From a virus, in the IMG/VR virus record IMGVR_UViG_3300008448_000414, positions 1-30,284 of that record: a DNA stretch of 30,284 nucleotides. The stretch is one strand, 5' to 3'. The notes beneath the pieces were generated by a model that was not told the origin of the DNA, did no database searches, and saw only the letters and a program-made list of their open reading frames with translations. How positions within the stretch are numbered: position 1 is the stretch's first letter; every line of letters starts with the position of its first letter. This document shows, one piece after another, positions 4,145-26,809 of the stretch. Position numbers and translations under genes: made by a program.

Positions 4145-4152
4145 TATTTATA
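4145..4152 (-). promoter_or_regulatory. Late promoter box TATAAATA
   Basis: Exact match to the T4-type late promoter box, 5 bases before the ATG of the lectin-like gene and inside the 16-base gap after the previous stop codon. With T4 geometry, transcription would start at or beside the ATG. Confidence 0.65.
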
Positions 4153-4155
4153 CAT

Positions 4156-4365
4156 TTAAACTTTTACAAACACTAAAGTCATCTGTTCGCCATCTTTAAA
4201 CTTAGTTAAATGAACTAACTTATATCCAAGTTTTTTATACTCTCTGTATATTGTACTAAAAAAGTCTTTTTTGATATTAATAATGATACTATCTCTTACA
4301 TCGTCTACTAGTACGAAGTCTGTAAACTCTTCACCGAGTGCATAAGCTCTACAAGTACCACCCAC
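4156..4365 (-). CDS. Hypothetical small protein, 69 aa, GTG start
   Basis: I do not recognise this protein. The GTG at 4363-4365 is the only usable start before an in-frame stop (the TAA at 4375-4377) unless translation begins further inside the gene. The protein mixes strands and helices (FVLVDDVRDSIIINIKK, then TIYREYKKLGYKLVHLTKF, then a final MTLVFVKV strand), giving a plausible small alpha/beta fold with no membrane segment and a single cysteine. It sits between the 52-residue gene (9-base gap) and the lectin-like gene within the fibre module, so it may be a chaperone or accessory for fibre assembly, as small genes between fibre genes sometimes are (inference). A CTTAAATA sequence, a variant of the late box, lies 6 bases before the GTG. 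Confidence 0.55.
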   Translation of the reverse strand: MGGTCRAYALGEEFTDFVLVDDVRDSIIINIKKDFFSTIYREYKKLGYKLVHLTKFKDGEQMTLVFVKV

Positions 4366-4371
4366 ATATAA

Positions 4372-4379
4372 TATTTAAG
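4372..4379 (-). promoter_or_regulatory. Possible variant late box CTTAAATA
   Basis: Six bases before the GTG of the 69-residue gene and overlapping the stop codon of the preceding gene. It differs from NATAAATA at one position, but two other genes here have the same NTTAAATA form at the same spacing. Confidence 0.3.
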
Positions 4380-4533
4380 TTAAATAGTCAGTAATCTGCT
4401 TTACTTTAGCATACAACTCTTTAAGATCATCGAAAGAGACATCACTATTAATACTAATATTATGGGCTTTGAGAATCTTCTCTAACAGAATAAAATCTTC
4501 TTCTGTTAGCCCTTCAACAATAAGTTCTTCCAT
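4375..4533 (-). CDS. Hypothetical very small acidic protein, 52 aa
   Basis: An ATG at 4531-4533 opens 52 codons ending in TAA at 4375-4377. The protein starts MEELIVEGLTEEDF and continues through two amphipathic helices (FILLEKILKAHN; FDDLKELYAKVKQIT). It is strongly acidic and helical, with no cysteine. It begins one base after the stop of the collar-domain fibre gene (TAATATG), the same compact coupling seen at other real gene junctions here, and it fills exactly the gap that would otherwise be noncoding. A small helical acidic protein directly after a fibre gene fits a fibre assembly or attachment factor, but no family is recognised. Confidence 0.6.
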   Translation of the reverse strand: MEELIVEGLTEEDFILLEKILKAHNISINSDVSFDDLKELYAKVKQITDYLT

Positions 4534-4534
4534 A

Positions 4535-6199
4535 TTAGTATGTATAGCCGACTACTCGTAGTGCAAGATTATCTCCACTCGATGTATTAACTCTAAAGGC
4601 GCAAACTAAATTACCGCCATTATTTGTAGATAGTGGTAATATAGTCTGTGTAGAATTAGCTATATAATCTCCCTTTCCAGCAGCGGCTGAAGCGTTTATC
4701 CAAAACTCTGTTGAACCAATATACTGTGTTCCTATTGTTGTGAGTAATGATATATTCGGAGCACCAGCGATTATTCGTACTATGCTACCACCATCCGGAC
4801 CCGACTTACTAATCCAACTATCAACAATTAGATTTTTAGCACTAGGAGGTACACTATATGTAGATACAGTACCTGCGTAATCGGTAAGATAGGGGTAAGC
4901 ACTTATAGTGAAGGTCTGACCTGTAAAGTTATTTGTTGAAGGTATAATACTAAAAGGTGTTTGAAAAAATACCATACCTGAAGAGTTTACATTGTAAGCA
5001 TTTTGCGAGCCTGGCGCTACTGCTGATAGTGTTCCGGTTTTTTCATTAGTGACAGATGTTACTCTACCATACTGATCCGCTGTAAATGTACCTCTTACTA
5101 AAGTACTACCGGCAAATACTGATTGTAATCCGAGTTGTACGTTACCTGATAAAGGGCTAAGAACGCTAGCACCTGTACCATTTACTGTTGCACATACTGG
5201 TGATGTTATTGTAAATTGCGAGCTTACTATATTATCTGGCTTTGCTTTTATTATATACAGAGCGCCTGCAGCGCTTAAAACAGAATTACTGCCAGAAGCT
5301 ACGTTAAATGTAGTAGTAGTAGCTGGAGCACCATTTACACCGTAAAGTGTTTTGTTAATTAAATTAGGCACCCTAAACTCATTTGTACTACCTGTACCAA
5401 AAGAAGTTCCTATTACGCTATATAAGTCTGGATATACAGTACTGAGAGCTGGTTGACCGTTACATAATAACCACCCGGTTGGTTCATTACCACCTGCAGA
5501 TACAAAGGGCATTATAGATCCTACTGGTACCTGGCCAGCTGTACCTGATACAAACAATGTAGAGCCAGCTGAATAAACATCCCATCGTAAATTACCTGCG
5601 GAATCTGTAGTCAAAAAGGTGTTATTAGCACCACCAGACGCTGGCCATCTGTAATCTACGTTATTTATTGTTAAATTCTGAGTAAGGTTAAGTTTATTAG
5701 TTGTTAGAGGTTGTATCTTATCTACGGAGATGCTACTACTTAACGCAATTTTACCTGACTCTAATGCAATATCTCTTCCAAGCAAGTTTAAAGAAACATT
5801 TCCAGCAGAAAGCTGATTTACTACTAATCCGTTAGAGAAAGTAGCACTTAATGTTCCGTTACCCGGGGAATAAACACCACCTATAGGCGACCATCTTGTT
5901 GTATCAGTAGGGTCACCTCCTAAGAAAGTGTATAGTACATTGTTATCACTATCAAACGCAATATCACCGGTAATAGCATTGGTAAAGGTAGTTACAAGCG
6001 GATTAGAACCTAAAAATTTACTACCACCTACCAGATTACCTCCTAGAGTTTGGCCATCACCAACATACAGTCTTTTTGTATCAGTAGTATAGCCAAGCTC
6101 GCCTTCTGATAGAATAATATTTTGTCTATCGACATTAGCTCCTCTTCTTACCAATAGTTTAAGAAGAGTATTTTCAAAAATTTCAATTTTCTTTGACAT
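4535..6199 (-). CDS. Tail fibre protein: Mtd-N-type domain plus tail-collar domain
   Basis: A 554-residue fibre protein. Residues about 12-58 (LLVRRGANVDRQ, ILSEGELGYTTDTKRLYVGD) match the short domain found at the start of many phage fibres, related to the major tropism determinant N-terminal domain, which typically anchors the fibre to the virion. Residues about 225-281 form a phage tail-collar domain: VPVGSIMPF, EPTGWLLCNGQ, then PDLYSVIGTSFG and FRVPNL. Between and after these are Gly/Ser/Thr-rich beta repeats typical of trimeric fibres; the C-terminus ends in a DNLALRVVGYTY strand. It follows the 369-residue paralogue after a 2-base gap, so both are translated together. The role is probably a short-tail-fibre or side-fibre component. 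Confidence 0.8.
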   Translation of the reverse strand: MSKKIEIFENTLLKLLVRRGANVDRQNIILSEGELGYTTDTKRLYVGDGQTLGGNLVGGSKFLGSNPLVTTFTNAITGDIAFDSDNNVLYTFLGGDPTDTTRWSPIGGVYSPGNGTLSATFSNGLVVNQLSAGNVSLNLLGRDIALESGKIALSSSISVDKIQPLTTNKLNLTQNLTINNVDYRWPASGGANNTFLTTDSAGNLRWDVYSAGSTLFVSGTAGQVPVGSIMPFVSAGGNEPTGWLLCNGQPALSTVYPDLYSVIGTSFGTGSTNEFRVPNLINKTLYGVNGAPATTTTFNVASGSNSVLSAAGALYIIKAKPDNIVSSQFTITSPVCATVNGTGASVLSPLSGNVQLGLQSVFAGSTLVRGTFTADQYGRVTSVTNEKTGTLSAVAPGSQNAYNVNSSGMVFFQTPFSIIPSTNNFTGQTFTISAYPYLTDYAGTVSTYSVPPSAKNLIVDSWISKSGPDGGSIVRIIAGAPNISLLTTIGTQYIGSTEFWINASAAAGKGDYIANSTQTILPLSTNNGGNLVCAFRVNTSSGDNLALRVVGYTY

Positions 6200-6201
6200 A
6201 A

Positions 6202-7311
6202 TTAGTAGGTAAAGATTGGGATTGCGAATCTATCAACGGTAGTTCCTAGATCTGATCCGGTATTAACAAATGCTAAGAAACCAGCAGAGGAAAGCTGTAT
6301 ATTCTGTGTAGTAGTACCGTTACCAGAAGCCGCATCTATAATAGTATGGCTAGTTTTTATAGCATCACTTGAAATTTGATCTGGAGCTCCAAAGAATATA
6401 TTATTTAAATTAGAAATTGTAGACGTTTTACCTGAGAATGTGTCAGATACAGTGTAGGTAGTCCCGTATATTTGTCCCTTACTATTATAAATTACATTTT
6501 GAAAGTTTGTTATACCTCCACCAACTACATCTGTAACACTTATAACACCCGCAGTGTTAGTAATAGAAGTATTATCTACACTTTGAAGTACTGTTTGTAC
6601 ATTGGCTCCTACAGTAAGACCTGCTCCGAATATACCACTACTTAGAGAAGCAAAATTTACTATACCAGCAGGCATAGCAGTTAATGTTAGTATCCCGGAA
6701 TTGTATCCAAAATAAGTAGGGTCAGCATTTACTGTAATTTTTACACCATCTCCACCAACTATACCGTTTCCAAAAGATGCAGTTTTAATTTTATTTTGAT
6801 CAATAGCACTTAATGTAATATAATTCGAACTTAAGACAATATATCGACTATCAACATTAGCAGATAGTCCATTAGCAACTGTAGCAATTATACCACCCTG
6901 TGAATAACCTGCAGAAGAGTTAAATTTTGTACCCGTTATACCATTATTTTTTATTTGCAAGTATCTATTAGGAGTACCTGTATACTCTAAAGTCGAATTA
7001 TCCGGAGTTAATTCAATTAGACCCCAAGAGCTTAAAGAAGTATAATCACTTGCTGTAAGCTGATACAATAATGTACCTGCATATACTGCATCTCCTAAAA
7101 ATGCAGGTATAGCAGTTAACTGGTTTTGATTGGTGATAGGAGTATAGAGTTTGGTACCTATGGTATTACCACCAGTGGTAACGCCATCTCCCACAAATAC
7201 TCTATTAGTATCAGTGGTATAGCCAAGTTCTCCTTGCTCTAAAAGAACTAACTTTCTTTGAGCATCTGTACCCCTTCTAATTTTAAGTTTTATAATGCTA
7301 ATATCAGGCAT
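6202..7311 (-). CDS. Tail fibre protein with Mtd-N-type anchor domain
   Basis: A 369-residue paralogue of the downstream fibre gene at its N-terminus: KIRRGTDAQRKLVLLEQGEL, then GYTTDTNRVFVGDGVTTGGN. The rest differs, being a low-complexity beta-rich shaft (repeated SxG/NTxG turns, VGGGITNFQNV, GTTYTVSDTFSG) without a collar motif. The last residues (VDRFAIPIFTY) end in an aromatic strand like its neighbour's GYTY. The shared N-domain suggests both fibres attach at equivalent sites on the same baseplate partner. It starts after a 3-base gap from the upstream gene and ends 2 bases before the next, so translation is probably coupled. Receptor-binding role is inferred. Confidence 0.75.
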   Translation of the reverse strand: MPDISIIKLKIRRGTDAQRKLVLLEQGELGYTTDTNRVFVGDGVTTGGNTIGTKLYTPITNQNQLTAIPAFLGDAVYAGTLLYQLTASDYTSLSSWGLIELTPDNSTLEYTGTPNRYLQIKNNGITGTKFNSSAGYSQGGIIATVANGLSANVDSRYIVLSSNYITLSAIDQNKIKTASFGNGIVGGDGVKITVNADPTYFGYNSGILTLTAMPAGIVNFASLSSGIFGAGLTVGANVQTVLQSVDNTSITNTAGVISVTDVVGGGITNFQNVIYNSKGQIYGTTYTVSDTFSGKTSTISNLNNIFFGAPDQISSDAIKTSHTIIDAASGNGTTTQNIQLSSAGFLAFVNTGSDLGTTVDRFAIPIFTY

Positions 7312-7314
7312 AAA

Positions 7315-7995
7315 TTATGATGTTCTTTCCCAGATGTAAATACCAAATGCTGGTGGTGTAGTTTGTGAAGTTGCAGAGCCGCTCGACTCAATAGGTAGAG
7401 ATGTTTTTATACCATAGGGTGAACCAGTTTGTGAGATTACTCTTACACCAGTACCATCACCTGGAACATATCTCATAGAGTATGAATTACCATCATTCCA
7501 GTCACCGTATATAATGTCTATATCATTATTACCGGCAGAAGTAAACTGACCAATACCATGCTTATGAGGTGGCACTGTTATAGTTACATTATACAGACCA
7601 TCACCATTTCCTTGAGTATATGTTTTAATTGTAGCATTTGTATCTGTACCAGTACCTACACCTACAATAAATCTACCTTGACTTGTAGCTACCCATGTAG
7701 TTCCTGGAAACAAAGTACCTGGGTTAGCACTATTTGTTGATAGGTATATAGAACCTACAGGATATACAATATCAATAACTCCTATAGGGTTGCCTAGTGC
7801 AAAACTAGATGCACTTAAAGTACCGCAAACAGTTACACCGTCACAATTTCTACCCACCTTTAATGAAAGTTCATTTCCAACGCCATCGTATAGCTCAGCT
7901 TGACTTCCACTAGATAGATTTGATAGAGATTCATTAGCATGAATCACAGTTTGGTATGTCTGCGATATGTTCTGTTGTGTAAAACTCTTAGGCAT
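7315..7995 (-). CDS. Baseplate gp10/gp12 C-terminal-like fibre protein
   Basis: A 226-residue protein. The N-terminal 65 residues (HANESLSNLSSGSQAELYDG, then ELSLKVGRN) look like the short trimeric attachment domain of many phage fibres. From residue 78 the sequence YPVGSIYLSTN, TLFPGTTW, GRFIVGVG, PPHKHG and finally PPAFGIYIWERTS follows the gp10 C-terminal/tail-collar-type domain common at phage baseplates. His144-x-His146 matches the paired His that binds metal on the trimer axis in related fibre knobs (established for T4 gp12 and gp37). Small for a fibre, so it is probably a baseplate-attached short knob or an adaptor for the two longer fibres downstream. A poor late-box match (ACTAAATA, 7 bases upstream) is not counted as a promoter. 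Confidence 0.8.
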   Translation of the reverse strand: MPKSFTQQNISQTYQTVIHANESLSNLSSGSQAELYDGVGNELSLKVGRNCDGVTVCGTLSASSFALGNPIGVIDIVYPVGSIYLSTNSANPGTLFPGTTWVATSQGRFIVGVGTGTDTNATIKTYTQGNGDGLYNVTITVPPHKHGIGQFTSAGNNDIDIIYGDWNDGNSYSMRYVPGDGTGVRVISQTGSPYGIKTSLPIESSGSATSQTTPPAFGIYIWERTS

Positions 7996-8013
7996 TCGTT
8001 ATTATTTAGTGGT

Positions 8014-9945
8014 TTAATTTATTATTAGAGTGTTTTTTAGTTTAGTTGTAGTAGTTCCTAAAACTTTAACTACAGATTGCTGGTCATCTACTTTAGTTAG
8101 CTCAAGAAGTTGTTTTTGCAACAAGAGAATATTAGATAAGCATCTGTTTATAACACTAACAATACTTTTTTCATTATCGTGGATGTAATAATCTTCTAAC
8201 TCTAAGTTTGCAAACTTACTAAAGTCAATATTATAGTTATAGTCTTTAAGCTTTACTATACCTTTATAATCATACTCACCAAAAAATCTTCCTATAAGAT
8301 TATTCTTTATAGAGAATATATCTCTCAACACTTTATATAGCTCCCTATTTACAACACTAGTTTGAATAAACTCATCATCAAGGTTTATACCTATGCTTTT
8401 TGCTCCAAAACTATACAAATTAGACGGTTTAATTATTTTCTTAAAGGTATTAAGTTCATTTATCACATAAAGCCTACCTTTTGTAATAATTAAGATCTTA
8501 TCATAGTCTTCATCTACAGGCATAACTCTAAACCCTTTATAATTATCTGCAAACATAGATATGACAGTAGTCCCTGTATCACCAACCGGTGTAAATGAAC
8601 CATTCCATATCCAATTAGCAGAGCTCCATCCTACCTCAGTATTATTCCAAACATCTGAAGGAGTAATTTCCGAATCCGTACTTGCCGATGCAGTAAAAAT
8701 GATATCTTCCGAGATTCTACCTATAGCCACATTAGATCGACTTACAAAAAACTTATAAATCTGCTTATTTGTACAAATATAGTAGTAATCGCTATTATTA
8801 TAAGAAAACTCTATATTTTTAACAGTTTCATCATCAACTAACGTAATAGGTAGTATGTTTCTTTCTTGCAATACAAAGCATTCGTCAAAAATATACAATT
8901 TTAAAGTATTGGATACTTTAGTAATAATATATAGCAGATTAAAGTAAGGATTAAACTCTATAGCTTGTAGTTCTTCTCTTTTAAGAGGTATAGTGGTGAT
9001 TCTACCCACATAATTAAAACGCGTATTATAAATTTTTAAACCGTAATTTCCAGAATCATGTACAACGAGATATGTGCCATTAGTAGCTAAATGCTTAGGT
9101 TTATTAAATCTATTATTATCCGTAATACGGCCTTTACCACCGATAGCTTCTATGTAATTTCGCCTATTAGCTAGTGCAAGATCTCCATTAAAGTAGCCTC
9201 CTATATCATACTTATATACATTATTATTATCTACGTCAGATATAAAAATATAATTATCAGCTCTACAAATACTGTCAAGTCTGCCGAAAGTTAAGGTGTT
9301 TATAGGAGTGCTAACACCTCTCACTCCACTTACACTATCAACATAACTGCTTCTCTCAATTACATTTAACTCTGTGTTATTACCGGTTAGGGAAATAAAT
9401 TCTGTATCTGTGATTGCAAATACAGAAAAGGAATTACTATCATCAGTATTGAGAGCAAAATTAAATTGATTAATTCCACTCAAATAAAAGTACACTGCAG
9501 AATCGCCAAATAAAATAGTATCTGAATAGTTAGTATATGCAGAAAAAGTAGTATCTGTAGGAGTCTCTACCCCATAATATTTTATTAATGATGTTATAGG
9601 TAGATCATTATTAGGCATAAAAGATCTAGAGTATAAGAAAGTATTATTGTCCTGCAGATTTTTAAGTTTTTGATAAAAAAGCCTAGATGTTAAAAAGTCA
9701 TTACCTTGAAGTAATACTTCATTTTCATTATTTGGTAAAGGTAGATCATCTGTTATTGATCTATTTTTAAAAAATCTAGATACTAGCAAATCGGTCTCGA
9801 AAGTATTACTTAAACTCAACTGCACACTTGTATTGTCAATATAAGGTACCCCGCTTAGCACCTCTACATAACCTGTATAAGCACCTGAAGCAGTATAAAA
9901 TATACCAGTATCTGCGTAAACTCTCTTATAGTCGTAGTACTCCAT
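8014..9945 (-). CDS. Virion protein with NHL-like beta-propeller
   Basis: A 643-residue protein, beta-rich throughout. Residues about 215-420 have the periodic pattern of an NHL/six-bladed propeller: DSICRADNYIFISDVDNNNV, YKYDIGGYFNG, a GGKGRITDNNRFNKPKHLA segment followed by LVVHDSGNYGLKIYN, then AIEFNPYFNLLYIITK. These are the 'GxxDGxFxxPxGIAxxxxGxVYVxDxxNxRI' type of repeat. The C-terminal 100 residues are more helical (ILLLQKQLLELTKV). The ATG overlaps the stop of the 1105-residue gene (TAATG), so synthesis is tightly coupled. It lies between wedge and fibre genes, so it is probably a peripheral baseplate protein offering a carbohydrate or protein-binding platform (inference). Confidence 0.65.
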   Translation of the reverse strand: MEYYDYKRVYADTGIFYTASGAYTGYVEVLSGVPYIDNTSVQLSLSNTFETDLLVSRFFKNRSITDDLPLPNNENEVLLQGNDFLTSRLFYQKLKNLQDNNTFLYSRSFMPNNDLPITSLIKYYGVETPTDTTFSAYTNYSDTILFGDSAVYFYLSGINQFNFALNTDDSNSFSVFAITDTEFISLTGNNTELNVIERSSYVDSVSGVRGVSTPINTLTFGRLDSICRADNYIFISDVDNNNVYKYDIGGYFNGDLALANRRNYIEAIGGKGRITDNNRFNKPKHLATNGTYLVVHDSGNYGLKIYNTRFNYVGRITTIPLKREELQAIEFNPYFNLLYIITKVSNTLKLYIFDECFVLQERNILPITLVDDETVKNIEFSYNNSDYYYICTNKQIYKFFVSRSNVAIGRISEDIIFTASASTDSEITPSDVWNNTEVGWSSANWIWNGSFTPVGDTGTTVISMFADNYKGFRVMPVDEDYDKILIITKGRLYVINELNTFKKIIKPSNLYSFGAKSIGINLDDEFIQTSVVNRELYKVLRDIFSIKNNLIGRFFGEYDYKGIVKLKDYNYNIDFSKFANLELEDYYIHDNEKSIVSVINRCLSNILLLQKQLLELTKVDDQQSVVKVLGTTTTKLKNTLIIN

Positions 9946-13262: not shown

Positions 13263-13268
13263 TTAATA

Positions 13269-13276
13269 TATTTATT
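13269..13276 (-). promoter_or_regulatory. Late promoter box AATAAATA
   Basis: NATAAATA-type box 6 bases before the GTG of the 1105-residue gene, in the 27-base gap after the preceding stop. An AGGA just upstream of it is too far from the GTG (15 or more bases) to act as a ribosome binding site. Confidence 0.45.
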
Positions 13277-13289
13277 TCCTAATGCTAAC

Positions 13290-16792: not shown

Positions 16793-16798
16793 TAATCT

Positions 16799-16806
16799 TA
16801 TTTATC
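16799..16806 (-). promoter_or_regulatory. Late promoter box GATAAATA
   Basis: NATAAATA-type box 6 bases before the ATG of the 974-residue gene, in the 26-base gap after the previous stop codon. Confidence 0.45.
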
Positions 16807-16818: not shown

Positions 16819-19059
16819 TTATAAAAACAGGTTCAGGCCATCATATAACTCTTTTGTAACTATATTGGAAATAATACCTTCTTTTTTAGACCAATCAGCG
16901 TAAGAAGAATTAGTATATTGTAGAGTTGTATTAAAGTCGTTAAAATCAATAACGCTTCCTGTAATAGTTCCATTTATACCAGGTGTATATTCATAGAAGA
17001 GATAATAATTGCTTATATCTTCTCCCAAATTATCAGAAGGTAATACTAAGCCCCATCCCCAGGAATTATTATAGTCGCTTAGTTTATAGGTATTACCGGA
17101 AAGAGATATACCATAAGAGCATAGTGGTAGATAGGTGTTTAGATACTTGTAGTTACCGCTGAACTTTTCAAATGCTACTAAATCTGTACCCGCTGTAACT
17201 GTATATTGAATACTAACACCATTACCGAGATTTTTACCGTAAATATCACTACTTAGATACCCATACGTATTAAAGTTTTCACTAAAAGCGTTTTTAACTC
17301 CGAATAATTTAGAATGACTAATAGACAACAAATTAATTAGTCGTCCTAGCCCCACGGGGTAGTTCATATTAAAGGAAGTAAACTGAATATCATCTTGATT
17401 CATTAACTTAAGTAATGAACCTAACTGATTTACATTACCGTAATCTAGAGTTGCATTGTTACTTACAAAATTTTGTATTTTCTCGTATGTAGTTTTACCT
17501 ATAGATGTTTGTTCAGAACTTATATTACCAAATATAGTACCTAGAAATTGATCAAATAGATTTATTTTATCTAAAAATAGTGGTTGGAATGCAATACTTT
17601 TGAAGGCATCTTGAAAATCTATTTGCTCACCTTTTTTAGCTATATTATAAACTCCGCCTGATGGATAGACGTTAAAGGTATTGCTATTTCCTAGAAGCTG
17701 TACTATATAATCTTCTATTACTAAAGCGCTAGTGTCTTCTGCTAAGATATTCTCATCACTCTCGCTATTAATTCTGAATAATTCTTCAGGTAATATAGAT
17801 CTTGCAGAAATATATACATTCTCCTGCAAAGTATTAAAATTCGTGATAAGATACCCCTTATAAAATCCTCCCTGTGATATACTTGTAAGACTTTGGAAAT
17901 CGGCAAAAAAGTATGCTTGATACGAGCCTACTGCTTCCTCAAGTTCAAGCATATCTATGTTATTCTCGACATATATAGTACTCAAGCTTTCGGTTAACAG
18001 TGATTGTGGAAGCGTAATACTAGAAAAATTAGTAACACCGTTTGTTAACTGAAAGTCTATATCAACTAACCGAGGGAGATTTTTTATAGTAAAATTCTCC
18101 GAGTCTTTAACTTTAACTACAAATCCTATCTTAGTGTTAGAAAATTTATTCTTACTAATATTAAATGTATTTGACGTAGTGCCTTCTCCATCTATACCGT
18201 TTGAAGAAATAGATAGATAATTATAATCGTTATTGTTGTATATAGAAGCTTTACAACCTACGGTAGATGTATTGCTGTAAGGTCTTAGCTCTGCAGGCTG
18301 ATAACCAAACATAATATTTACATGCGAAGAGGGAAGATCGTCTTTGTAAAAAACAAACCGTTCGCCTGTTAGTCCGCAAAAGAAAGCATCTGTATCTGTT
18401 GAGGATTTTCGAACAATATTATTTCCAGATAGACCTATATAGATAGGAGTTGAGATTGTATTGAAGGATGATACTTCTACAAATTCTGTTAAATTATTAA
18501 TGCCAGTTAGTAGTAAATATACAGAACTTGAAGGGTAGAGATGACCGTATCTCGTATTAACTAGATTATCTCTAAAATAATCTAAACTATTGCTTCCAGA
18601 AATAAACGCTACTATAGAAAGATTATTTTCAGGATCATTATTTAGTGCTTGCCAGGAAATACCATTTGTTATTTTTACCGGGTCAGTAAATCTTCCTGCA
18701 GATAATTGAAGCTGAGTTGCGTTATTCGCAGTTATGAGTATAAAGTCTTCAATATAATTTTTTATAGTAACGTTTACAGAGTAGGAATCATAATAGCTCT
18801 CTCCTGTAGCGTCATATAAATAGCATGTGACTTTATATTTACCAGCATCTTGATACGTATGGGTCGCTGTAACAGTCTCAGATGTTGTATTGTCTCCAAA
18901 ATCCCATACTATTCTTTTTCTAGATAAAAAATTTTCAGTAGTGTCTAACTTCGGAATAAAAGTAAGAGGTGTAAAGGGTAACGCGTAACTACTGGTAGAT
19001 GGAGTACCTGTGTAGTCAACCGTATTAAAAAAGGCAAATGTTGTATTAATATTACTCAT
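16819..19059 (-). CDS. PKD-domain baseplate protein
   Basis: A 746-residue protein with a clear PKD domain at about 35-100: RIVWDFGDNTTSE, then ATHTYQDAGKYKVTCYLYDA and a closing YSVNVTIKN strand, including the hallmark W-D-F-G-D (52-56) and H-T-Y (67-69). The remaining 640 residues are beta-rich with some helical stretches (for example GSLLKLMNQDDIQF). Its ATG is inside the last codons of the gp6-like gene (8-base overlap), so it is tightly coupled to a wedge protein; in T4 the gene after 6 is 7. It could replace gp7 or be a wedge-bound adhesin. PKD domains commonly mediate protein or polysaccharide binding. Confidence 0.7.
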   Translation of the reverse strand: MSNINTTFAFFNTVDYTGTPSTSSYALPFTPLTFIPKLDTTENFLSRKRIVWDFGDNTTSETVTATHTYQDAGKYKVTCYLYDATGESYYDSYSVNVTIKNYIEDFILITANNATQLQLSAGRFTDPVKITNGISWQALNNDPENNLSIVAFISGSNSLDYFRDNLVNTRYGHLYPSSSVYLLLTGINNLTEFVEVSSFNTISTPIYIGLSGNNIVRKSSTDTDAFFCGLTGERFVFYKDDLPSSHVNIMFGYQPAELRPYSNTSTVGCKASIYNNNDYNYLSISSNGIDGEGTTSNTFNISKNKFSNTKIGFVVKVKDSENFTIKNLPRLVDIDFQLTNGVTNFSSITLPQSLLTESLSTIYVENNIDMLELEEAVGSYQAYFFADFQSLTSISQGGFYKGYLITNFNTLQENVYISARSILPEELFRINSESDENILAEDTSALVIEDYIVQLLGNSNTFNVYPSGGVYNIAKKGEQIDFQDAFKSIAFQPLFLDKINLFDQFLGTIFGNISSEQTSIGKTTYEKIQNFVSNNATLDYGNVNQLGSLLKLMNQDDIQFTSFNMNYPVGLGRLINLLSISHSKLFGVKNAFSENFNTYGYLSSDIYGKNLGNGVSIQYTVTAGTDLVAFEKFSGNYKYLNTYLPLCSYGISLSGNTYKLSDYNNSWGWGLVLPSDNLGEDISNYYLFYEYTPGINGTITGSVIDFNDFNTTLQYTNSSYADWSKKEGIISNIVTKELYDGLNLFL

Positions 19060-20860
19060 CCTCTACTATAATTTTTGTGGTAAGCTTGGAGATATCGTAA
19101 AAATACGCATACTCGAATTTTTTAAGCTGTATATTTTGTGATGTAAAACTAATATCATCTACAGGGTAAGATGGATTCCACGCTATTAACGATAATATAG
19201 GCACTTCAAATTGCGTGTCTGTTCTTCTTGTAACTATAGAGGAGACACCGTCTATATTTAGAATTTCATTTACTATAGAAGATGTATTTACAACTTGACC
19301 TAATTGAATATTATCAAAGTATGTCTTGAAAATATTAGCTACATTATTTTTTATAACGTTAGTGCTAATTCTAATATTAGGATCTTTTTTAATAACAAGC
19401 ACGGTTACATCTTTAAGATCAACACACTCTACTTCACCTTGTATCTGCAATCCTAAGTTTATAGCCTTGTATACAGGATCTATAGTAACTACATTCTGTG
19501 TTAAGTCTTTCTTTAAATTACATTCATTGATAATAAGCTGTTTTTGCGAAGCATTTAAATAATTAGGTATTTGTTCATTTATTATAGTTGAAATCTTAGG
19601 TACAGATACCACGTACACGTTATTAAATGATGTAGAGTTTGAGAAATTAACCTGATTAAAAAGAACTCTACAATCTTCATTAGGTTGATTTAACCCTACA
19701 CTATAGTAATACCTCATTAATTCATTTACGTATTCATCATTACTGAGAATTTTTACGCTTTTTATTACATTATTAAAGCTTCTATTAATGAAATATTCGT
19801 AATCAGTAGCTGTTACAAGTCTATTTTGAAGAGAAAATATCTTTGGTGCGTTATTTTTTATTTGCTCAATAGTCTCTGCCTGTGATATAGGAGAACTATC
19901 ATTGGTATTATTAGTTATAAGCTGACTTAAATTACTACCTACAATAAAATTGTCTGTAGAAGCATAAATGTCAGTTACAATCTCGTTAAAGGTAGAAGTG
20001 TTGTATAGATTAAAAAAGTTACCCAGTAACACATTAGAACCTATTTGACCTTGAGATCCAGAAGAGAATACGTAATAGATTTGTACTACATCTCCCTCTT
20101 CCAACTTTTTACCATTAGTACCATTACCAAACTTAAACTCAAAATTTCCATTTTCGTTTAAACGCTTTTCATAAACTAAAGCATTTGAATCCTCCAAGAA
20201 TAAAGAAGAGGTTTCATTCCACTCCTGCCATTTTCCAGATTGTATGCTTTTTATAAAGATCGTAAATGAGTTATCAGCTATAAATCTACTATCTGCAGTA
20301 TTATCTGGTAAATTAACAACTGTTAATATTTCAAAATTTTCTCCTACTGCAGTATATTTTGGATGTTCTGTAATAGAACCTTGATAGAGAGTATTATTGT
20401 TAATACTTAAAGTTTCATCTACTTCTGTTGTCTTTTCAAAAGAAATATCATCGATAGTAGTAAAAGGTATACCGGATGAAGCTATAGTGGAAAATCTCCT
20501 GAGTATATAATTATTAGGAGCTAATCCGCTAGATCCTGATAGTGAAATATTTACTAACGAGGTTTGCTTGCCAGCCGGTTTGTAATTTAAATTTGATACT
20601 AGTTTATTGATATTTTCGTATAGCTCCGCTGTAGTAAAAGTAGATTCCGAGGAAGTTGTGTTGAGATAAAAGAGTAACACATGATACATGTATGCTACTA
20701 TATCTATAAATGCATTTAGGTTTGACCCTTCGTAAACTTGATCTCTAAATACCTCACTCTCATTTAAGCGGGTAATTATTAATTCCTTAATAGTAGTTGC
20801 ATCAAATGCAGTATAGCTATTTTTAGGTAGGGTAAATTCAGTAAAGCTTTTAATACTCAT
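19052..20860 (-). CDS. Baseplate wedge protein, gp6 / baseplate-J family
   Basis: A 602-residue homologue of the baseplate J/gp6 family, the wedge subunit that closes into the ring controlling sheath contraction. Family features: an N-terminal helix with DVYEG-like context (EVFRDQVYEGSNLNAFIDIV), the helical AYMYHVLLFYLN run, ELYENINKLVSNLNYKPAGK, a central FKFGNGTNGKKLEEGDVVQI strand pair, and NRLVTATDYEYFI at about 360, matching the family's 'AVTxxDYExLA' motif. T4 gp6 is about 660 residues, so the length fits. It starts 2 bases after the gp25-like stop and overlaps the PKD gene by 8 bases. The 25-6 order is the same as in most contractile tails. Confidence 0.88.
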   Translation of the reverse strand: MSIKSFTEFTLPKNSYTAFDATTIKELIITRLNESEVFRDQVYEGSNLNAFIDIVAYMYHVLLFYLNTTSSESTFTTAELYENINKLVSNLNYKPAGKQTSLVNISLSGSSGLAPNNYILRRFSTIASSGIPFTTIDDISFEKTTEVDETLSINNNTLYQGSITEHPKYTAVGENFEILTVVNLPDNTADSRFIADNSFTIFIKSIQSGKWQEWNETSSLFLEDSNALVYEKRLNENGNFEFKFGNGTNGKKLEEGDVVQIYYVFSSGSQGQIGSNVLLGNFFNLYNTSTFNEIVTDIYASTDNFIVGSNLSQLITNNTNDSSPISQAETIEQIKNNAPKIFSLQNRLVTATDYEYFINRSFNNVIKSVKILSNDEYVNELMRYYYSVGLNQPNEDCRVLFNQVNFSNSTSFNNVYVVSVPKISTIINEQIPNYLNASQKQLIINECNLKKDLTQNVVTIDPVYKAINLGLQIQGEVECVDLKDVTVLVIKKDPNIRISTNVIKNNVANIFKTYFDNIQLGQVVNTSSIVNEILNIDGVSSIVTRRTDTQFEVPILSLIAWNPSYPVDDISFTSQNIQLKKFEYAYFYDISKLTTKIIVEDE

Positions 20861-20862
20861 AA

Positions 20863-21348: not shown

Positions 21349-21354
21349 TACTAA

Positions 21355-21362
21355 TATTTATA
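21355..21362 (-). promoter_or_regulatory. Late promoter box TATAAATA
   Basis: Exact T4-type late box, 6 bases before the ATG of the gp25-like gene, in the 37-base gap before the wedge operon. It is one of three exact matches in the window. Confidence 0.65.
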
Positions 21363-21385
21363 GTAAAAGCCTGATAAGGAATTCA

Positions 21386-21598: not shown

Positions 21599-21603
21599 AA
21601 ACT

Positions 21604-21611
21604 TATTTATT
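21604..21611 (-). promoter_or_regulatory. Late promoter box AATAAATA
   Basis: NATAAATA-type box 5 bases before the ATG of the small Lys-rich gene; it overlaps the stop codon of the upstream gene. Its spacing supports the 21598 start. Confidence 0.4.
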
Positions 21612-21882: not shown

Positions 21883-21887
21883 GTAAT

Positions 21888-21895
21888 TATTTAAT
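21888..21895 (-). promoter_or_regulatory. Possible variant late box ATTAAATA
   Basis: Five bases before the ATG of the 90-residue basic gene. One mismatch to NATAAATA, but the spacing is the same as for exact boxes. It faces away from the + strand box at 21902 in a 32-base divergent gap. Confidence 0.35.
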
Positions 21896-21901
21896 TAAAA
21901 G

Positions 21902-21909
21902 TATAAATA
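21902..21909 (+). promoter_or_regulatory. Late promoter box TATAAATA
   Basis: Exact T4-type late box 5 bases before the ATG of the 197-residue gene. The divergent gap is only 32 bases in all, so little room is left for any other promoter element. Confidence 0.65.
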
Positions 21910-21914
21910 ATGTT

Positions 21915-22508
21915 ATGGCTAAAACAAAGAAGTTTTTAACACTACTCGAAACTTACATGAATCGATTTGAACGAGGCGGATTTTTAGTAGGTGATGTTTT
22001 TAAATTCAGCGATGGTTTCAAAAATTCAGATTCCTATAAAAAGCTAGGAACTAATACAAAAGAAATGATCGATCAAATGATTGAAACAGGTCTTCATGTA
22101 AGAGTTGTAGGTATTAAAGACACTAGCGGTTCACGTTATCCAGGTAATCCACAGACTACTACACAAGATGTTATCTTAACTCTTGCTCTTGACAATGGTG
22201 GTGGTAGATATACCCACTATGTATCTGTTGAACCTGATCCTAGCTTAGGTGAACCACAGAGATTCTACCCTAATCTTCCACCTATTCCTGATGCTGTTGT
22301 TAGAAAGAACAATGTTAACATCAAGCCTCAAGAAGTAGAAGATTATGATAATTTAGCTAACAAAACTGATAGAGGCGATGGTAAGCTATCTGATACTAAT
22401 CTTACTCTACCAGACCAAAACACTGTTATTCCAAGTCAATCAGTTACTCCTTCTCCAGCAGTAGCTTCCTACACCCATGAATATCTTAAAGATATAGAAA
22501 AATATTAA
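21915..22508 (+). CDS. Hypothetical late protein, candidate internal head protein
   Basis: A 197-residue protein without a recognised family. The N-terminus, MAKTKKFLTLLETYMNRF, is a basic, amphipathic helix containing L-L-E at 10-12, like a capsid-targeting sequence. Residues about 15-115 look like a folded alpha/beta domain (GGFLVGDVFKFSDGF; MIETGLHVRVVGIKD; VILTLALDNGGGRYTHYVSV). The last 80 residues are Pro/Asn/Asp-rich and probably extended. An exact TATAAATA box 5 bases upstream marks it as a late gene, consistent with a virion or assembly role. No membrane segment or catalytic motif is seen. Confidence 0.65.
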   Translation: MAKTKKFLTLLETYMNRFERGGFLVGDVFKFSDGFKNSDSYKKLGTNTKEMIDQMIETGLHVRVVGIKDTSGSRYPGNPQTTTQDVILTLALDNGGGRYTHYVSVEPDPSLGEPQRFYPNLPPIPDAVVRKNNVNIKPQEVEDYDNLANKTDRGDGKLSDTNLTLPDQNTVIPSQSVTPSPAVASYTHEYLKDIEKY

Positions 22509-22516
22509 TCACTTAA

Positions 22517-22524
22517 CATAAATA
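22517..22524 (+). promoter_or_regulatory. Late promoter box CATAAATA
   Basis: NATAAATA-type box exactly 5 bases before the ATG of the alanine-rich gene, in the 21-base gap after the previous stop. Confidence 0.5.
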
Positions 22525-22529
22525 ACTAT

Positions 22530-22904
22530 ATGAGAAAAGCCGATTGTCTTTTATTGGAGAGCGCATACAGCTCTATATTGCTAAAATCCCGTCTAGAAAA
22601 TTTAACAATTTCACAATTGCATAATGTTATTGAAAATGCATCTAGCTCAGAACTAGATATTATTGAAGAGGCTCTCGGAGGCTTTGGAAACTTATTTAAA
22701 GCTGGTAAGCAGGCGGTTCAAGGCGCAGGCACTGCTGTTAAAGGCGCTGTTCAAGGAGCAGCACAAAGAGCTGGCGCTGCTGTTACAGATGCAGCACAAA
22801 GAGCTGGCGCTGCTGTTACAGATGCAGCACAAAGAGCGGGTACTGCAGTTCAAGGCGCTGGCCGTGCTGCAAAAGCAGGTGCTCAACAAGTTAAAAAAAT
22901 GTAA
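22530..22904 (+). CDS. Alanine-rich 11-mer-repeat late protein, interrupted by frameshift
   Basis: The zero-frame product is 124 residues. Residues 1-50 are a helical head (MRKADCLLLESAY, then LDIIEEALGG), and from about 55 to 120 runs an Ala/Gly/Gln-rich amphipathic 11-residue repeat (AAQRAGAAVTD and variants), like LEA-type or apolipoprotein-like helices. The frame ends at TAA 22902-22904, immediately after a run of seven A (22893-22899). The -1 frame then stays open to 23188 with a protein of the same style, so one extra A would give a continuous 219-residue protein. L-L-E at 8-10 and I-E-E/A at 46-48 fit T4 prohead protease sites, so an internal, perhaps ejected, head protein is a reasonable guess. 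The CATAAATA box marks it as late. Confidence 0.65.
   Translation: MRKADCLLLESAYSSILLKSRLENLTISQLHNVIENASSSELDIIEEALGGFGNLFKAGKQAVQGAGTAVKGAVQGAAQRAGAAVTDAAQRAGAAVTDAAQRAGTAVQGAGRAAKAGAQQVKKM
22758..22856 (+). repeat. 33-base tandem repeat, three units
   Basis: Units at 22758-22790 and 22791-22823 are identical; the third, 22824-22856, is diverged after its first 14 bases. Each encodes the 11-residue unit AAQRAGAAVTD. The identity of the first two units at DNA level suggests recent duplication or slippage, so repeat number may vary between relatives. Confidence 0.85.
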
Positions 22905-23188
22905 AACAAATATACCAGACTGGTGAGCAAGAAGCTGCAGCAGAAAAAAGAAAAGCAGAAGTAGCAAAATCCGTAGGTGCTTTATTACAACAACTTGAAG
23001 CATTAAAAGAAGCTAACCCTAAAATTGGACAAGAAATTGGTAATATAACTGACCTTACCATCGGACAAATTCAATCTCTCGTAAAACGTGGTTTAGAATC
23101 TAAGCAACGTGCTGCTAGAGGTGCTAGACAGCAAGGTTTCTTCGGTAAAGTGGGAACTGCTGCACAAAAAGCATACGGTCAAGCTTAA
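22895..23188 (+). other. -1-frame continuation of the 11-mer-repeat gene
   Basis: This frame is open from 22895 to TAA at 23186-23188 (97 codons) and encodes a clearly natural sequence: an Ala/Lys/Glu helix (TGEQEAAAEKRKAEVAKSVG), a second helix (LLQQLEALKEANPKIGQEIG) and a basic C-terminus (RAARGARQQGFFGKVG, ending AYGQA). It has no ATG and no well-placed GTG or TTG, so it cannot easily be started on its own; it should be the C-terminal half of the upstream protein. The junction is an A7 run. Explanations are a homopolymer sequencing or assembly error, a real inactivating mutation, transcriptional slippage on A7, or programmed -1 frameshifting. The stop overlaps the clamp-loader stop by four bases on the other strand. 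Confidence 0.75.
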
Positions 23189-24105
23189 ACTTTTTCAAGT
23201 GCGATCCAACAGGCAAAGCAGTTAATCTCTTTATCTAACACAAACGCACTCTTATAGAGATGATCAGCAATTATTGCGATCATCTCTTTCTTTTTGAGAT
23301 CATCAAGAGGTCGATCGTAGATGTAGTTTAGAAAGTCTCTCATAAGACTATCGTAATCACCATAAAATCTATCTTCGCTCTCAATAAGAGTTTTTCTTAA
23401 TGATAATACGTCTTTTTGCTGGATAGCAGAATTAATGGTTTCGAGCAGAGTTCTATCAACAGAGATATTAGTAATAGATAGAGTCTTATCAATACAGTTC
23501 TTCTGAATCTCATTAATACACTTTCGAAAGTCGGGGAAGTTAACTTTAATAAGCTCAACAAACTTACGCTTTTGGTCTGCATCAATCTGGATACCTTCTT
23601 GCTGAAGTATACTATAGCACCTCTTCACAGTATCCTCAATAACAGGCTTGATATCAAGAGATTGGCATCTGGATTGTAGAGCAGGAATGATCTTATGCTT
23701 GTAGTTAGCAGTTAAGATAAACCGCGTATACTTAGCAAAAGACTCCATGGTATTCCTCAAAGCAGCTTGTGCTTGTGAAGTAAGACCGTCGCACTCGTCA
23801 AGAATAACTACCTTAATCTTACCATCAAACGACTTAGTTTGAGAGAAATTAGTTACCTTATAACGAATAGTATCAATACCCGATTCGTCAGAAGCATTGA
23901 TGTATAGAAAGTTACACCCGAGGATATCATTTACAATGATCCTAGCAAGAGTAGTCTTACCAGTCCCTGGTGTTCCTACAAACAATAAATTAGGAATCTC
24001 TTCTTTGAACCCTTGGACTATTTCACGAGTCCTCTCAGGTAGAATGAGATCTTCTAACTTCTGCGGGCGATACTTTTCAACCCAGATACCTTTCAAGTCT
24101 AGCAT
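23185..24105 (-). CDS. Sliding clamp loader subunit, T4 gp44 / RFC-small type
   Basis: A 306-residue AAA+ ATPase that loads the sliding clamp at the replication fork. It has IWVEKYRPQKLEDLI at the N-terminus (the RFC 'WVEKYRP' box), Walker A GTPGTGKTT at 44-52, Walker B VVILDECD at 99-106, a sensor-1 region ILTANY at 130-135 and the RFC-signature S-R-C at 145-147; the C-terminal third is the helical collar. T4 gp44 is 319 residues. I chose the ATG at 24103-24105 over an in-frame upstream ATG because it directly follows the dUTPase stop (TAATATG) and begins at the conserved N-terminus. The small partner (gp62) and the clamp are not in this window. Confidence 0.92.
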   Translation of the reverse strand: MLDLKGIWVEKYRPQKLEDLILPERTREIVQGFKEEIPNLLFVGTPGTGKTTLARIIVNDILGCNFLYINASDESGIDTIRYKVTNFSQTKSFDGKIKVVILDECDGLTSQAQAALRNTMESFAKYTRFILTANYKHKIIPALQSRCQSLDIKPVIEDTVKRCYSILQQEGIQIDADQKRKFVELIKVNFPDFRKCINEIQKNCIDKTLSITNISVDRTLLETINSAIQQKDVLSLRKTLIESEDRFYGDYDSLMRDFLNYIYDRPLDDLKKKEMIAIIADHLYKSAFVLDKEINCFACWIALEKV

Positions 24106-24106
24106 A

Positions 24107-24613
24107 TTATTGTCCTGATGAACCAAAACCCTTAGCACCACGCTCAGTTTCAGTCTTTTTTCCTTCTCCCATAACTACAGTATAGTTCTTATATACAACA
24201 AATTGCGCAATCCTATCACCACTACTTACGGTATAGTCAACATCAGTGTTATTATAGAGCTTGATACCAGCATTTCCACGGTAAGGTTGATCAATAATAC
24301 CAAAATGAGGAGCAATACCATGCTTGAACCCAAGCCCTGATCTGCCTTCAACCCTTACCCAATATCCCGGAGTGATATCAGCAAACTCAAGACCAACATC
24401 AACAACAGCACTACCACGAGCAGGAATAATCTTATGCTCAACGCTATATACATCAAATCCAGTATCGTCATCATGGTTTTTAGTTGGAATCTTAGCATCC
24501 GGATGTGTCTTAACGAACTTTACTAATGCGTCAATCTTTTTAAAGTAATCATAATTAACTGTAATACCACCAGGATCTAGTTCGTATCCCATATTAGCTG
24601 TAATTGTATCCAT
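24107..24613 (-). CDS. dut: dUTPase (deoxyuridine 5'-triphosphate nucleotidohydrolase)
   Basis: A trimeric-type dUTPase of 168 residues, converting dUTP to dUMP and PPi, which keeps uracil out of phage DNA and supplies dTMP precursor. All five family motifs are visible: DDDTGFDVYS (48-57), GRSGL (90-94), GIIDQPYRGNAGIKLYN (105-121), SGDRIAQFVV (131-140) and RGAKGFGSSG (158-167). Motif I has Gly-Phe-Asp and motif III the catalytic-water Asp (108). The ATG at 24611-24613 is preferred to one 93 bases upstream because the longer form adds an unrelated hydrophobic leader that overlaps the divergent gene; an AGG lies 7-9 bases before it. A 28-residue N-terminal extension precedes the usual core. 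It is coupled to the clamp loader. Confidence 0.95.
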   Translation of the reverse strand: MDTITANMGYELDPGGITVNYDYFKKIDALVKFVKTHPDAKIPTKNHDDDTGFDVYSVEHKIIPARGSAVVDVGLEFADITPGYWVRVEGRSGLGFKHGIAPHFGIIDQPYRGNAGIKLYNNTDVDYTVSSGDRIAQFVVYKNYTVVMGEGKKTETERGAKGFGSSGQ

Positions 24614-24620
24614 ATAACCT

Positions 24621-24648
24621 ATTGTAAATGTTGATTTGAGTAAATCAA
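24621..24648 (-). promoter_or_regulatory. Possible sigma70-type early promoter for dUTPase and clamp loader
   Basis: On the minus strand TTGATT (24643-24648) and TACAAT (24621-24626) are separated by 16 bases, 4/6 and 5/6 matches to TTGACA/TATAAT. Seven bases separate the -10 from the ATG. There is no late box on this side, which fits early or middle expression of replication genes. Confidence 0.35.
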
Positions 24649-24649
24649 G

Positions 24650-24657
24650 AATAAATA
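24650..24657 (+). promoter_or_regulatory. Late promoter box AATAAATA
   Basis: NATAAATA-type box 6 bases before the ATG at 24664, 2 bases from the possible early promoter that faces the other way. Confidence 0.45.
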
Positions 24658-24663
24658 TATGGT

Positions 24664-25095
24664 ATGGAAGAAGATTTAGATGAAGCAGTAAATGACATTC
24701 TCTCACAATTGAGAGGTAATGTCGCTTTAGCTAAAAGAGAGCCAGAAGAGGAACTTACAAAAGATATGTTAGAATCCTTTATTATTAAAAACTCAGGTAA
24801 GCTTATTACTAAGTCTTTAAACATTGTTGATAATGTAAATGATTATGTAGCATCTGCTCCAGATGCAAAGGACGTAGCAGCTTTAGCTGAATTAATTGCA
24901 GCAACTTCTTCAGCAATTGAAACACTCAATAAAGTATATATCTCAGATGAGAGAAATAAAACTCAGGTAAAGGTAAAGCAAATGGATGTTGATTCGAAAG
25001 AAAGAATGAACATTACAGATAACAAGACAAGGGTTCTTTTATCTAGAGAAGATATTATGAAAGCATTAGTAAATGATGATGCTATAGATGTTTAA
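24664..25095 (+). CDS. Candidate small terminase subunit (gp16-like)
   Basis: A 143-residue, acidic, almost entirely helical protein. The central part (LITKSLNIVDNVNDYVAS, then DVAALAELIAATSSAIETLN, KVYISDER) has the layout of the T4 gp16 core: a first helix, a break with acidic or polar residues, then a helix with the 'ALAxLIxATxxxIxTLNK' type of spacing, followed by a charged tail. T4 gp16 is 164 residues. T4-type small terminases form rings that recognise concatemeric DNA and stimulate gp17. A late box is 6 bases upstream. The large terminase is not adjacent, unlike T4, where 16 and 17 overlap; that weakens the call. Alternative: an unrelated helical scaffold or chaperone. Confidence 0.5.
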   Translation: MEEDLDEAVNDILSQLRGNVALAKREPEEELTKDMLESFIIKNSGKLITKSLNIVDNVNDYVASAPDAKDVAALAELIAATSSAIETLNKVYISDERNKTQVKVKQMDVDSKERMNITDNKTRVLLSREDIMKALVNDDAIDV

Positions 25096-26795
25096 GATTT
25101 TCTTAGGACTCTTACTTTCATACCCACAAAATTATTACTAAAGCTTGTGTTATTTCTTATGGTAATTTCTGTACCATCAGCAAAAGCTTTACCCGCATAT
25201 GTACCTGTAGGTCTAACACCACCTATTTTATATAAAAGCCAAGGCGTAACATCCAAACGGGTATTAAAATCTAAACCTCCTCTATCAATTACTACTACAT
25301 TTTTGTAGACTTTATTTTTATAGGTAATTTCAACTACAGCATTTAATGGATTAACATTATATTTTCTAAGATCGGAATTTTTAAGAGCTACACCATTGTT
25401 AAATGCTTTTTTTATTAATTTGGTATAATCTTCATTATTATAATATCCTTCATTTATATATTTTACAAATCCATCATTAGCACCTATCTGAGAATTATTG
25501 ATAGTACCAGATTGACTAGGACAATAGATATAATTAGTATCGTATATACCAATACCTTTTATAGTAAGTAAATCGCCAGAGGTTGCATAAAAACTATCGC
25601 CCCACACTGTTCTCCCTGAAGGAGAGTCAGGATCTCCAATATCGTACCATCCACCGAAAGTACTAACTTGATCACCCGGCATTACAGTAAATTCATAGTA
25701 AACCTCACCTGTATTATTTGATACAATCGTATCTTCTCCATTATAAAGCTCTCTATCACCATCGTAAATCGCTTCTTTATAATTTGAACCTGTGATTAAC
25801 CTATTTACAAAAGGAATAAACCCTAAAGCTTCTTTATTAGTATTACTGGTACCTCCTGTATTTACACTTGGACCTGTGATATCTCTTTCATAAACTACAC
25901 CATTAGATTGATCTGCTACTTCAGGTTTATTTGATGTACTATAATTCATATCCGGGTTATACGGATTATATCTATTAGCTTGTTGATATTGCCTAAAACA
26001 ATCACCCATTTTGTTAGCGGTTTTACCCAATATGTTAGAAGCAGCAGAATTATGATCTAAATACGACTTAAAATCTGGTGTGTAAATATAACCTTCTGCG
26101 TTAATACCACCTCTCAGAGATACTCCCGATCTAGCTTTTTTAACCAAAGCATCAGTATCTTTTATTGTAAACATACTAATACACTCAGTCCATGCTGCTT
26201 GACCAATAGCAGCTAATTCAGCAAAGCTATCAGTAAAAGCAGTTGGCACTTTATTCCATATGTCTTTACCTACTCCTCCTACACCGGTAGTAAACTCACC
26301 TAGTAAATCCGCAAAAGATGGCATGGTAGCTAAATTCATGTTAGCAGATTGTTCTGCTAATTTAGCAACTGACTCTGAATTTTGAGAAAAATAGTTACAT
26401 GGCGAGTTTAAGCAATCCTTAAAAGCTTCTTTAAGAAGAGTAGCAAATCTAGAATTATAGTCGCCGGTTTCTGGAATCCTCGTATAATTTCCCAAGACAT
26501 ATTCAACTCTTTGAATTTGACCCTTAAAAGCAGGGTATAAGTTTATCTTGCTAGCATAGAAATTAATAGTAGATACATCCAATGCCGGTCCATTTACTAT
26601 AAAGTCCTCTGTAAATTGCTTTACCGCGTCTTGATCGCCATTTAATCCTTTATTAAAAAGTATAGCTAAATCAAAATCTAACTTAAGATCTGGATCATCT
26701 ACTAAATCGCAAAAAGGTGAGCTATATTTAAGAAAATCTCTACTTATAGCATAACCGAATAATTTTTCTGCCAAATTGTTAGAATAGATAATCAT
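25092..26795 (-). CDS. Baseplate hub/spike candidate with RlpA-like barrel domain
   Basis: A 567-residue protein. The N-terminal half is mostly helical (LLKEAFKDCLNS, then FADLLGEFTTGVGGVGKDIW). The C-terminal 110 residues have the layout of a double-psi beta-barrel as in RlpA and expansins: NPLNAVVEITYKNKVYKNVV, Asp504-Arg505-Gly-Gly, then TRLDVTPWLLYKIGG (cf. 'DRGP...RxIDLSxAAAxxLG') and a closing MKVRVLRKS strand. Such domains bind or cut peptidoglycan; catalytic residues were not verified. It follows the hub-like 482-residue gene in the tail hub operon, a place and size resembling T4 gp5 (575 residues, a lysozyme-bearing spike). An ATTAAATA box is 6 bases upstream. I infer a cell-wall-acting spike or hub. 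Confidence 0.55.
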   Translation of the reverse strand: MIIYSNNLAEKLFGYAISRDFLKYSSPFCDLVDDPDLKLDFDLAILFNKGLNGDQDAVKQFTEDFIVNGPALDVSTINFYASKINLYPAFKGQIQRVEYVLGNYTRIPETGDYNSRFATLLKEAFKDCLNSPCNYFSQNSESVAKLAEQSANMNLATMPSFADLLGEFTTGVGGVGKDIWNKVPTAFTDSFAELAAIGQAAWTECISMFTIKDTDALVKKARSGVSLRGGINAEGYIYTPDFKSYLDHNSAASNILGKTANKMGDCFRQYQQANRYNPYNPDMNYSTSNKPEVADQSNGVVYERDITGPSVNTGGTSNTNKEALGFIPFVNRLITGSNYKEAIYDGDRELYNGEDTIVSNNTGEVYYEFTVMPGDQVSTFGGWYDIGDPDSPSGRTVWGDSFYATSGDLLTIKGIGIYDTNYIYCPSQSGTINNSQIGANDGFVKYINEGYYNNEDYTKLIKKAFNNGVALKNSDLRKYNVNPLNAVVEITYKNKVYKNVVVIDRGGLDFNTRLDVTPWLLYKIGGVRPTGTYAGKAFADGTEITIRNNTSFSNNFVGMKVRVLRKS

Positions 26796-26801
26796 ATACT
26801 T

Positions 26802-26809
26802 TATTTAAT
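26802..26809 (-). promoter_or_regulatory. Possible variant late box ATTAAATA
   Basis: Six bases before the ATG of the 567-residue gene, partly overlapping the stop codon of the hub gene. One mismatch to NATAAATA, the same variant as at 21888. Confidence 0.3.

Follow-up and report, generated by a model that had tools for sequence, protein, structure and literature searches.

Late promoter boxes at a fixed distance from start codons suggest leaderless messages in an uncultured T4-like phage lineage

Phage gene expression is taught from bacteriophage T4, whose late genes depend on leaders that carry Shine-Dalgarno sites. The viral DNA described here raises the question of how late proteins would be translated where the late promoter box lies so close to the start codon that hardly any leader could fit between them. 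The window, by which we mean the whole stretch analysed, is a fragment of 30,284 bases with 33% G+C. It encodes T4-type genes for gp6-like and gp25-like baseplate wedge proteins, a gp44-like clamp loader and a dUTPase, as well as another wedge subunit and further tail genes with a gp10 C-terminal or a tail collar domain. Judging from the homologues of gp6 (phrog_219, 1e-44), gp25 (phrog_261, 1.5e-21) and gp44 (phrog_168, 3e-80), the phage is T4-like and belongs to the T4 superfamily. The best match to its gp44 among 50,697 phage records reaches only about 41% identity, and there is therefore no close cultured relative among those records, while IMG/VR contains relatives in the form of 31 contigs found via gp6 (41-67%) and 80 via gp44 (68-82%). 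Two of the genes serve as landmarks:

19052..20860, minus strand: gp6-like baseplate wedge gene, coupled to the gp25-like gene across a 2-nt gap; marks the phage as T4-like
23185..24105, minus strand: gp44-like clamp loader gene, directly after the dUTPase gene and stop-start coupled

Two adjoining tail proteins (window positions 4535-7311) have a common N-terminal Mtd_N (major tropism determinant) domain, to which the one at 4535-6199 adds the tail collar domain, and a glycosyltransferase family 8 gene (592-1395, plus strand) stands at the edge of the structural block. Two long relatives carry a tmRNA (L126:15777-16193 and L144:4252-4661, both on the minus strand; Rfam RF00023, 132-134 bits), each with an unusually long tag peptide, and one of these two also has three tRNAs (Leu, Met, Arg).

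An earlier note on this DNA had listed eleven late boxes, each separated from a start codon by 5 or 6 bases, and all eleven were recovered at those positions, eight of them as NATAAATA and three as NTTAAATA. A further variant with a 7-nt spacer, ahead of a gene for a gp10 C-terminal-like tail protein, is probably a twelfth and weaker late box. In the order of their coordinates, the boxes are:

4145..4152, minus strand: late promoter box TATAAATA, 5 nt to the start codon at 4139, gene 2928-4139
4372..4379, minus strand: late box CTTAAATA, 6 nt to GTG 4365, short ORF 4156-4365
8003..8009, minus strand: probable late box variant CTAAATA, 7 nt to ATG 7995, gene 7315-7995
13269..13276, minus strand: late box AATAAATA, 6 nt to GTG 13262, gene 9945-13262
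16799..16806, minus strand: late box GATAAATA, 6 nt to ATG 16792, gene 13868-16792
21355..21362, minus strand: late box TATAAATA, 6 nt to ATG 21348, gp25-like baseplate wedge gene 20863-21348
21604..21611, minus strand: late box AATAAATA, 5 nt to ATG 21598 (an internal ATG within a longer ORF), gene 21386-21598
21888..21895, minus strand: late box ATTAAATA, 5 nt to ATG 21882, gene 21610-21882
21902..21909, plus strand: late box TATAAATA, 5 nt to ATG 21915, gene 21915-22508
22517..22524, plus strand: late box CATAAATA, 5 nt to ATG 22530, gene 22530-22904
24650..24657, plus strand: late box AATAAATA, 6 nt to ATG 24664, gene 24664-25095
26802..26809, minus strand: late box ATTAAATA, 6 nt to ATG 26795, gene 25092-26795

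The short ORF at 4156-4365 with its GTG start is the weakest gene among those headed by a box.

The spacing is far sharper than chance would produce. ATAAATA occurs twelve times on the two strands of the window, four times at 5 nt and four times at 6 nt from a called start, and at no other spacing between 0 and 28 nt. For this test we set each start blindly at the first ATG of the ORF, and for the null we shuffled the upstream regions by dinucleotides; against it, WTAAATA at 5-7 nt was observed 8 times in the window where 0.1 were expected, and 141 times where 4.2 were expected in six related contigs (759 genes), which are of common descent, so that p-values overstate their independence and are only indicative. 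In the two longest relatives, of 197 and 171 kb, the peak persists from end to end, as the full-genome check proposed in the earlier note had asked. The window and all the long related contigs examined show the sharp spacing of 5-6 nt, while late boxes at 12-53 nt were depleted in the six related long contigs (36 against 62 expected). The motif itself is not over-represented in the window, with 4 copies of TATAAATA against 11.4 expected by shuffling; what is peculiar about the box is its position only, not its abundance. A control with the reversed motif proved invalid, since ATAAATA read backwards is the same string.

Such proximity might be ascribed to a compact genome whose short intergenic gaps push promoters near to the starts, leaving leaders from a few bases to tens of bases long, and the gaps at the promoter-headed genes of the window are indeed only 9-37 nt. 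However, a limit set by the gaps predicts a spread of distances rather than a peak at 5-6 nt, similarly compact AT-rich T4-like phages (Mosig, PA5oct, T4) mostly keep 15-30 nt, and the initiator signature described below sits on the start codon, which makes compaction an exceedingly improbable cause.

The spacing is also specific to the gene and is kept in the relatives even where the flanks diverge. Among distinct upstream regions of relatives, the box before 21915 lies at 5 nt in 47 of 52 and that before 21882 at 5 nt in 17 of 19, whereas the box before 16792 lies at 6 nt in 19 of 23 and at 7 nt in the other 4; before 22530 it lies at 5 nt in 6/7 relatives. Boxes at 5 nt occur, among the IMG/VR matches listed, also in contigs that use Shine-Dalgarno sequences. 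This conservation bears on the possibility that the boxes are late promoters of minor importance, and that the messages that matter come from distant promoters and obtain their leaders via read-through, as could happen in principle given that most genes lie in co-directional blocks. The divergent genes 21882 and 21915 speak against it: only 32 bp separate their starts, both boxes fall inside that gap, and both are held at exactly 5 nt in the proportions just given. Late boxes are moreover depleted at the distances that a leader would require, and a leader obtained by read-through would have no Shine-Dalgarno sequence to use. We therefore consider a dominant role of read-through very unlikely.

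If the boxes act as late promoters in their own right, the start of transcription can be predicted from T4. There, the late box stands roughly one turn of the helix ahead of the transcription start, with its first base at -13 (PMC2988020), and +1 is therefore the sixth base after the box (box+6); 15 of the 18 leadered boxes of T4 have a purine at this position. In the 5-nt boxes of the clade, box+6 coincides with the initial A or G of the start codon, and a pyrimidine occupies -1 in 326 of the 340 distinct cases, compared with 491 of 871 (56%) promoter-less genes; the cases are related by descent, and the p-value is therefore no more than indicative. Box+6 is a purine for 73% of the 6-nt boxes and 83% of the 7-nt boxes, which would correspond to leaders of one or two bases. 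T4 numbering and these signatures taken together suggest that transcription would begin with the start codon itself after a 5-nt spacer, and one or two bases ahead of it after a spacer of 6-7 nt. As to the start codons of the clade, GTG is commoner after late boxes (78/558) than in promoter-less genes (30/926) and TTG is rarer (4 versus 25), and the second codons behind late boxes are often GCN (Ala).

The machinery that would read these boxes has counterparts in the relatives. The late sigma factor gp55 (phrog_234) was detected in 8 of 20 related contigs, with E-values down to 5e-27, and not on the window fragment; a gp45-like clamp was present in one of eight related contigs. In the clade, late boxes head the genes for tube, sheath, portal, major capsid, protease, terminase and endolysin. 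Together with the box itself, these target genes and counterparts are consistent with promoters of the T4 late type, probably read by a gp55-like sigma factor of the phage on the host RNA polymerase. The base profile of the box genes has no strongly conserved position in the -35 region.

The proximity of promoter and start codon is not limited to late genes. In the six related contigs, TATAAT peaks 5-8 nt before starts (71 observed, 7.2 expected), mainly at 6-7 nt across the clade, and two classes can be distinguished. An early class, TTGAWW-N16-TATAAT, ends at the start codon; TTGA ends 17-19 nt upstream of TATAAT in 49 of 91 near-start TATAAT sites. A second set of such sites has AGGAAC ending 5 nt upstream and forms a middle-type class, AGGAACT-N4/5-TATAAT, which likewise ends at the start codon and in which the AGGAACT box stands in place of the -35 element (contigs L126-L163: G001-G004, G008, G010). 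It lies closer to the -10 element than the MotA box of T4, at -30, does, being 4-5 nt before TATAAT; a search of the clade for MotCF gave no match, as did the control search. The classes are divided by function, with early and middle-type promoters at replication genes and late boxes at virion and lysis genes. Early-class targets in the relatives comprise dUTPase, UvsX, UvsY, single-strand binding protein, helicase and gp55, and middle-type targets comprise helicases, clamp loader, thymidylate kinase and polynucleotide kinase. The gp55 gene has its early-class promoter anchored at the start codon in several relatives (loci L115-L122). The window itself contributes one example of the early class, in which TACAAT lies 7 nt ahead of ATG 24613 of the dUTPase gene (24107-24613, minus strand):

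24621..24648, minus strand: early-class promoter of the dUTPase gene, TTGATT at 24648-24643, 16-nt spacer, TACAAT at 24626-24621

The strongest case for leaderless transcription is that one and the same nucleotide is indicated by all three promoter classes. The proposal of leaderless or near-leaderless late messages, made in the earlier note, is well supported by the position of the boxes, their conservation, the signature of the initiator and the difference from T4-like phages with leaders, but its scope was too narrow, as the early and middle-type promoters, including that of the window dUTPase, are anchored at start codons too. The same classes weigh against a reading of ATAAATA as an element of translation instead of a promoter, namely a stretch that is AU-rich, is unstructured or binds S1, or a context of the Kozak kind as in Bacteroidota. 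The phage does lack Shine-Dalgarno sequences, and adenines ahead of the start help initiation in Flavobacterium (PMC6847099). Yet coupled genes within operons have no ATAAATA, a second motif, TATAAT, is anchored at the 6 nt expected for sigma70, the TTGA element resembling a -35 keeps a fixed spacing from TATAAT outside any ribosome site, and the motifs partition by gene function. Messages of F. johnsoniae, the example for Bacteroidota, are mostly leadered (PMC6847099), and TAnnTTTG, the -7 element of that phylum, is not enriched here (2 against 3.4 expected and 1 against 2.5), where TATAAT is enriched instead. A purely translational role of the motif is in our estimation very unlikely.

How genes are translated is reflected in what lies ahead of their starts. 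In box genes of the clade, Shine-Dalgarno sequences were found in 0/112 and 0/57 in two sets and in 16/321 (12.5 expected) in a third, and tetramers of this kind near the starts of non-box genes numbered 9/223 against 10.4 expected and 20/476 against 26.7. The same counts gave 27/48 against 3.4 expected in T4, 30/54 against 4.8 in Mosig and 19/36 against 3.7 in HTVC008M. The earlier note had seen no convincing Shine-Dalgarno sequence at the box genes of the window, and the AGGA-like strings near them indeed lie only upstream of the box or touching it, and so ahead of the predicted 5' end. Its remark that genes without a box mostly abut an upstream gene holds as well: 13 of the 16 such calls in the window have an upstream stop within -8 to +4 nt. 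Two modes, promoter-anchored or coupled, account for most starts; by strict motifs some 190 of the 849 gene calls made in the six contigs belong to neither, and in those calls one-mismatch boxes are enriched about threefold at the same spacing. Since the absence of Shine-Dalgarno sequences is phage-wide and no mark of box genes, it more likely mirrors the initiation mode of the host than a late-phase trick for winning ribosomes. A phage-encoded bS21 was considered as a cause of the lost Shine-Dalgarno use, and none was found in 20 contigs.

With regard to the host, Bacteroidota would be attractive in view of the missing Shine-Dalgarno sequences, but the promoter type, with its TTGA/TATAAT early promoters and the unenriched TAnnTTTG, argues against such a host. 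Actinobacteria and Deinococcus-Thermus are the groups richest in leaderless genes (PMC3160421); the actinobacterial host marker WhiB was not found in 14 contigs, and an actinobacterial host is still compatible with the data. A scan of bacterial genomes with gp44 yielded only three distant matches, two of them in archaeal metagenome bins at 36-43% identity, and pointed to no host.

We regard it as highly probable that gp55-type late promoters placed at the starts produce leaderless mRNAs in this lineage, and that the early and middle-type promoters, which share the layout, would make the whole programme leaderless. Initiation would then proceed without Shine-Dalgarno sequences, most likely through direct binding of the ribosome to the 5'-terminal AUG or GUG, and the downstream genes of each unit would be translated by stop-start coupling. 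On balance we also favour a broader proposal, in which a widespread uncultured T4-like lineage has its entire early, middle and late programme leaderless, has abandoned Shine-Dalgarno sequences and employs an AGGAACT middle box unlike that of MotA, in a host whose ribosomes would initiate mostly at start codons on the 5' end, or in some other way that needs no Shine-Dalgarno. This layout departs from T4 and points to an unusual start of protein synthesis in the host of an uncultured phage. It suggests that a phage can retain its transcription machinery and yet exchange the mode of translation initiation, apparently via a promoter shift of about 20 bp, so that promoter-to-start spacing could serve as a computable marker for the translation mode of the host. 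The clade provides a natural set of hundreds of predicted leaderless genes with leaders of 0-2 nt. The open-access literature searched contained no description of T4-like phages with leaderless late messages; each of the three elements (late box, gp55, leaderless messages) is known singly, and their combination as the rule for a whole T4-like programme appears new within that literature.

For comparison with known systems, T4, S-PM2, Syn9, HTVC008M and Mosig were put through the spacing and shuffle tests as controls, and spacings were counted in PA5oct and DLP6. The clade resembles the T4 late system (gp55/gp33/gp45; T4, KVP40, S-PM2, Syn9) in its TATAAATA/NATAAATA box with a purine 6 nt downstream, in the late virion genes that it serves, in the gp55 homologue and, for one contig, in the gp45-like clamp. 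Whereas the clade has its boxes at 5-6 nt and no Shine-Dalgarno, those of T4 and the cyanophages, like those of PA5oct, mostly lie 14-37 nt upstream, and in T4 a leader with AGGAG-type Shine-Dalgarno sites fills the space between box and start. By the same mechanical count as in the clade, the distances are 12-35 nt in T4, 19-37 in S-PM2, 21-36 in Syn9, mostly 15-32 in the pelagiphage Mosig and mostly 16-37 in PA5oct. The Pelagibacter phage HTVC008M (Kyanoviridae; region L112, positions 10000-59000) stands between the two, with five late boxes exactly 5 nt before starts, a leaderless layout as in the clade. In contrast to the clade, it mixes in late genes with boxes at 18-36 nt and AGGAG, has Shine-Dalgarno sequences in 19 of 36 non-box genes and has no clear near-start TATAAT class. 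The near-start layout is thus not confined to the lineage of the window, but there it is the rule, and HTVC008M, as a cultured phage with both layouts, offers a ready experimental system. Leaderless genes of bacteria, in Actinobacteria and Deinococcus-Thermus, are recognised by TANNNT some 12 bp ahead of the start (PMC3160421), a -10-type box at the start codon to which the TATAAT of the clade, at 6-7 nt, is comparable. They make up roughly 20-40% of the genes of a cell (PMC3160421), as against most operon heads of the virus, and differ from the clade, which has three promoter classes, one of them ascribed on sequence grounds to a viral sigma factor. Among phages, the cI mRNA of lambda, cited as leaderless in PMC9031893, is a message that starts at its AUG, as predicted in the clade; there a single repressor gene is concerned, while here it would be the whole lytic programme.
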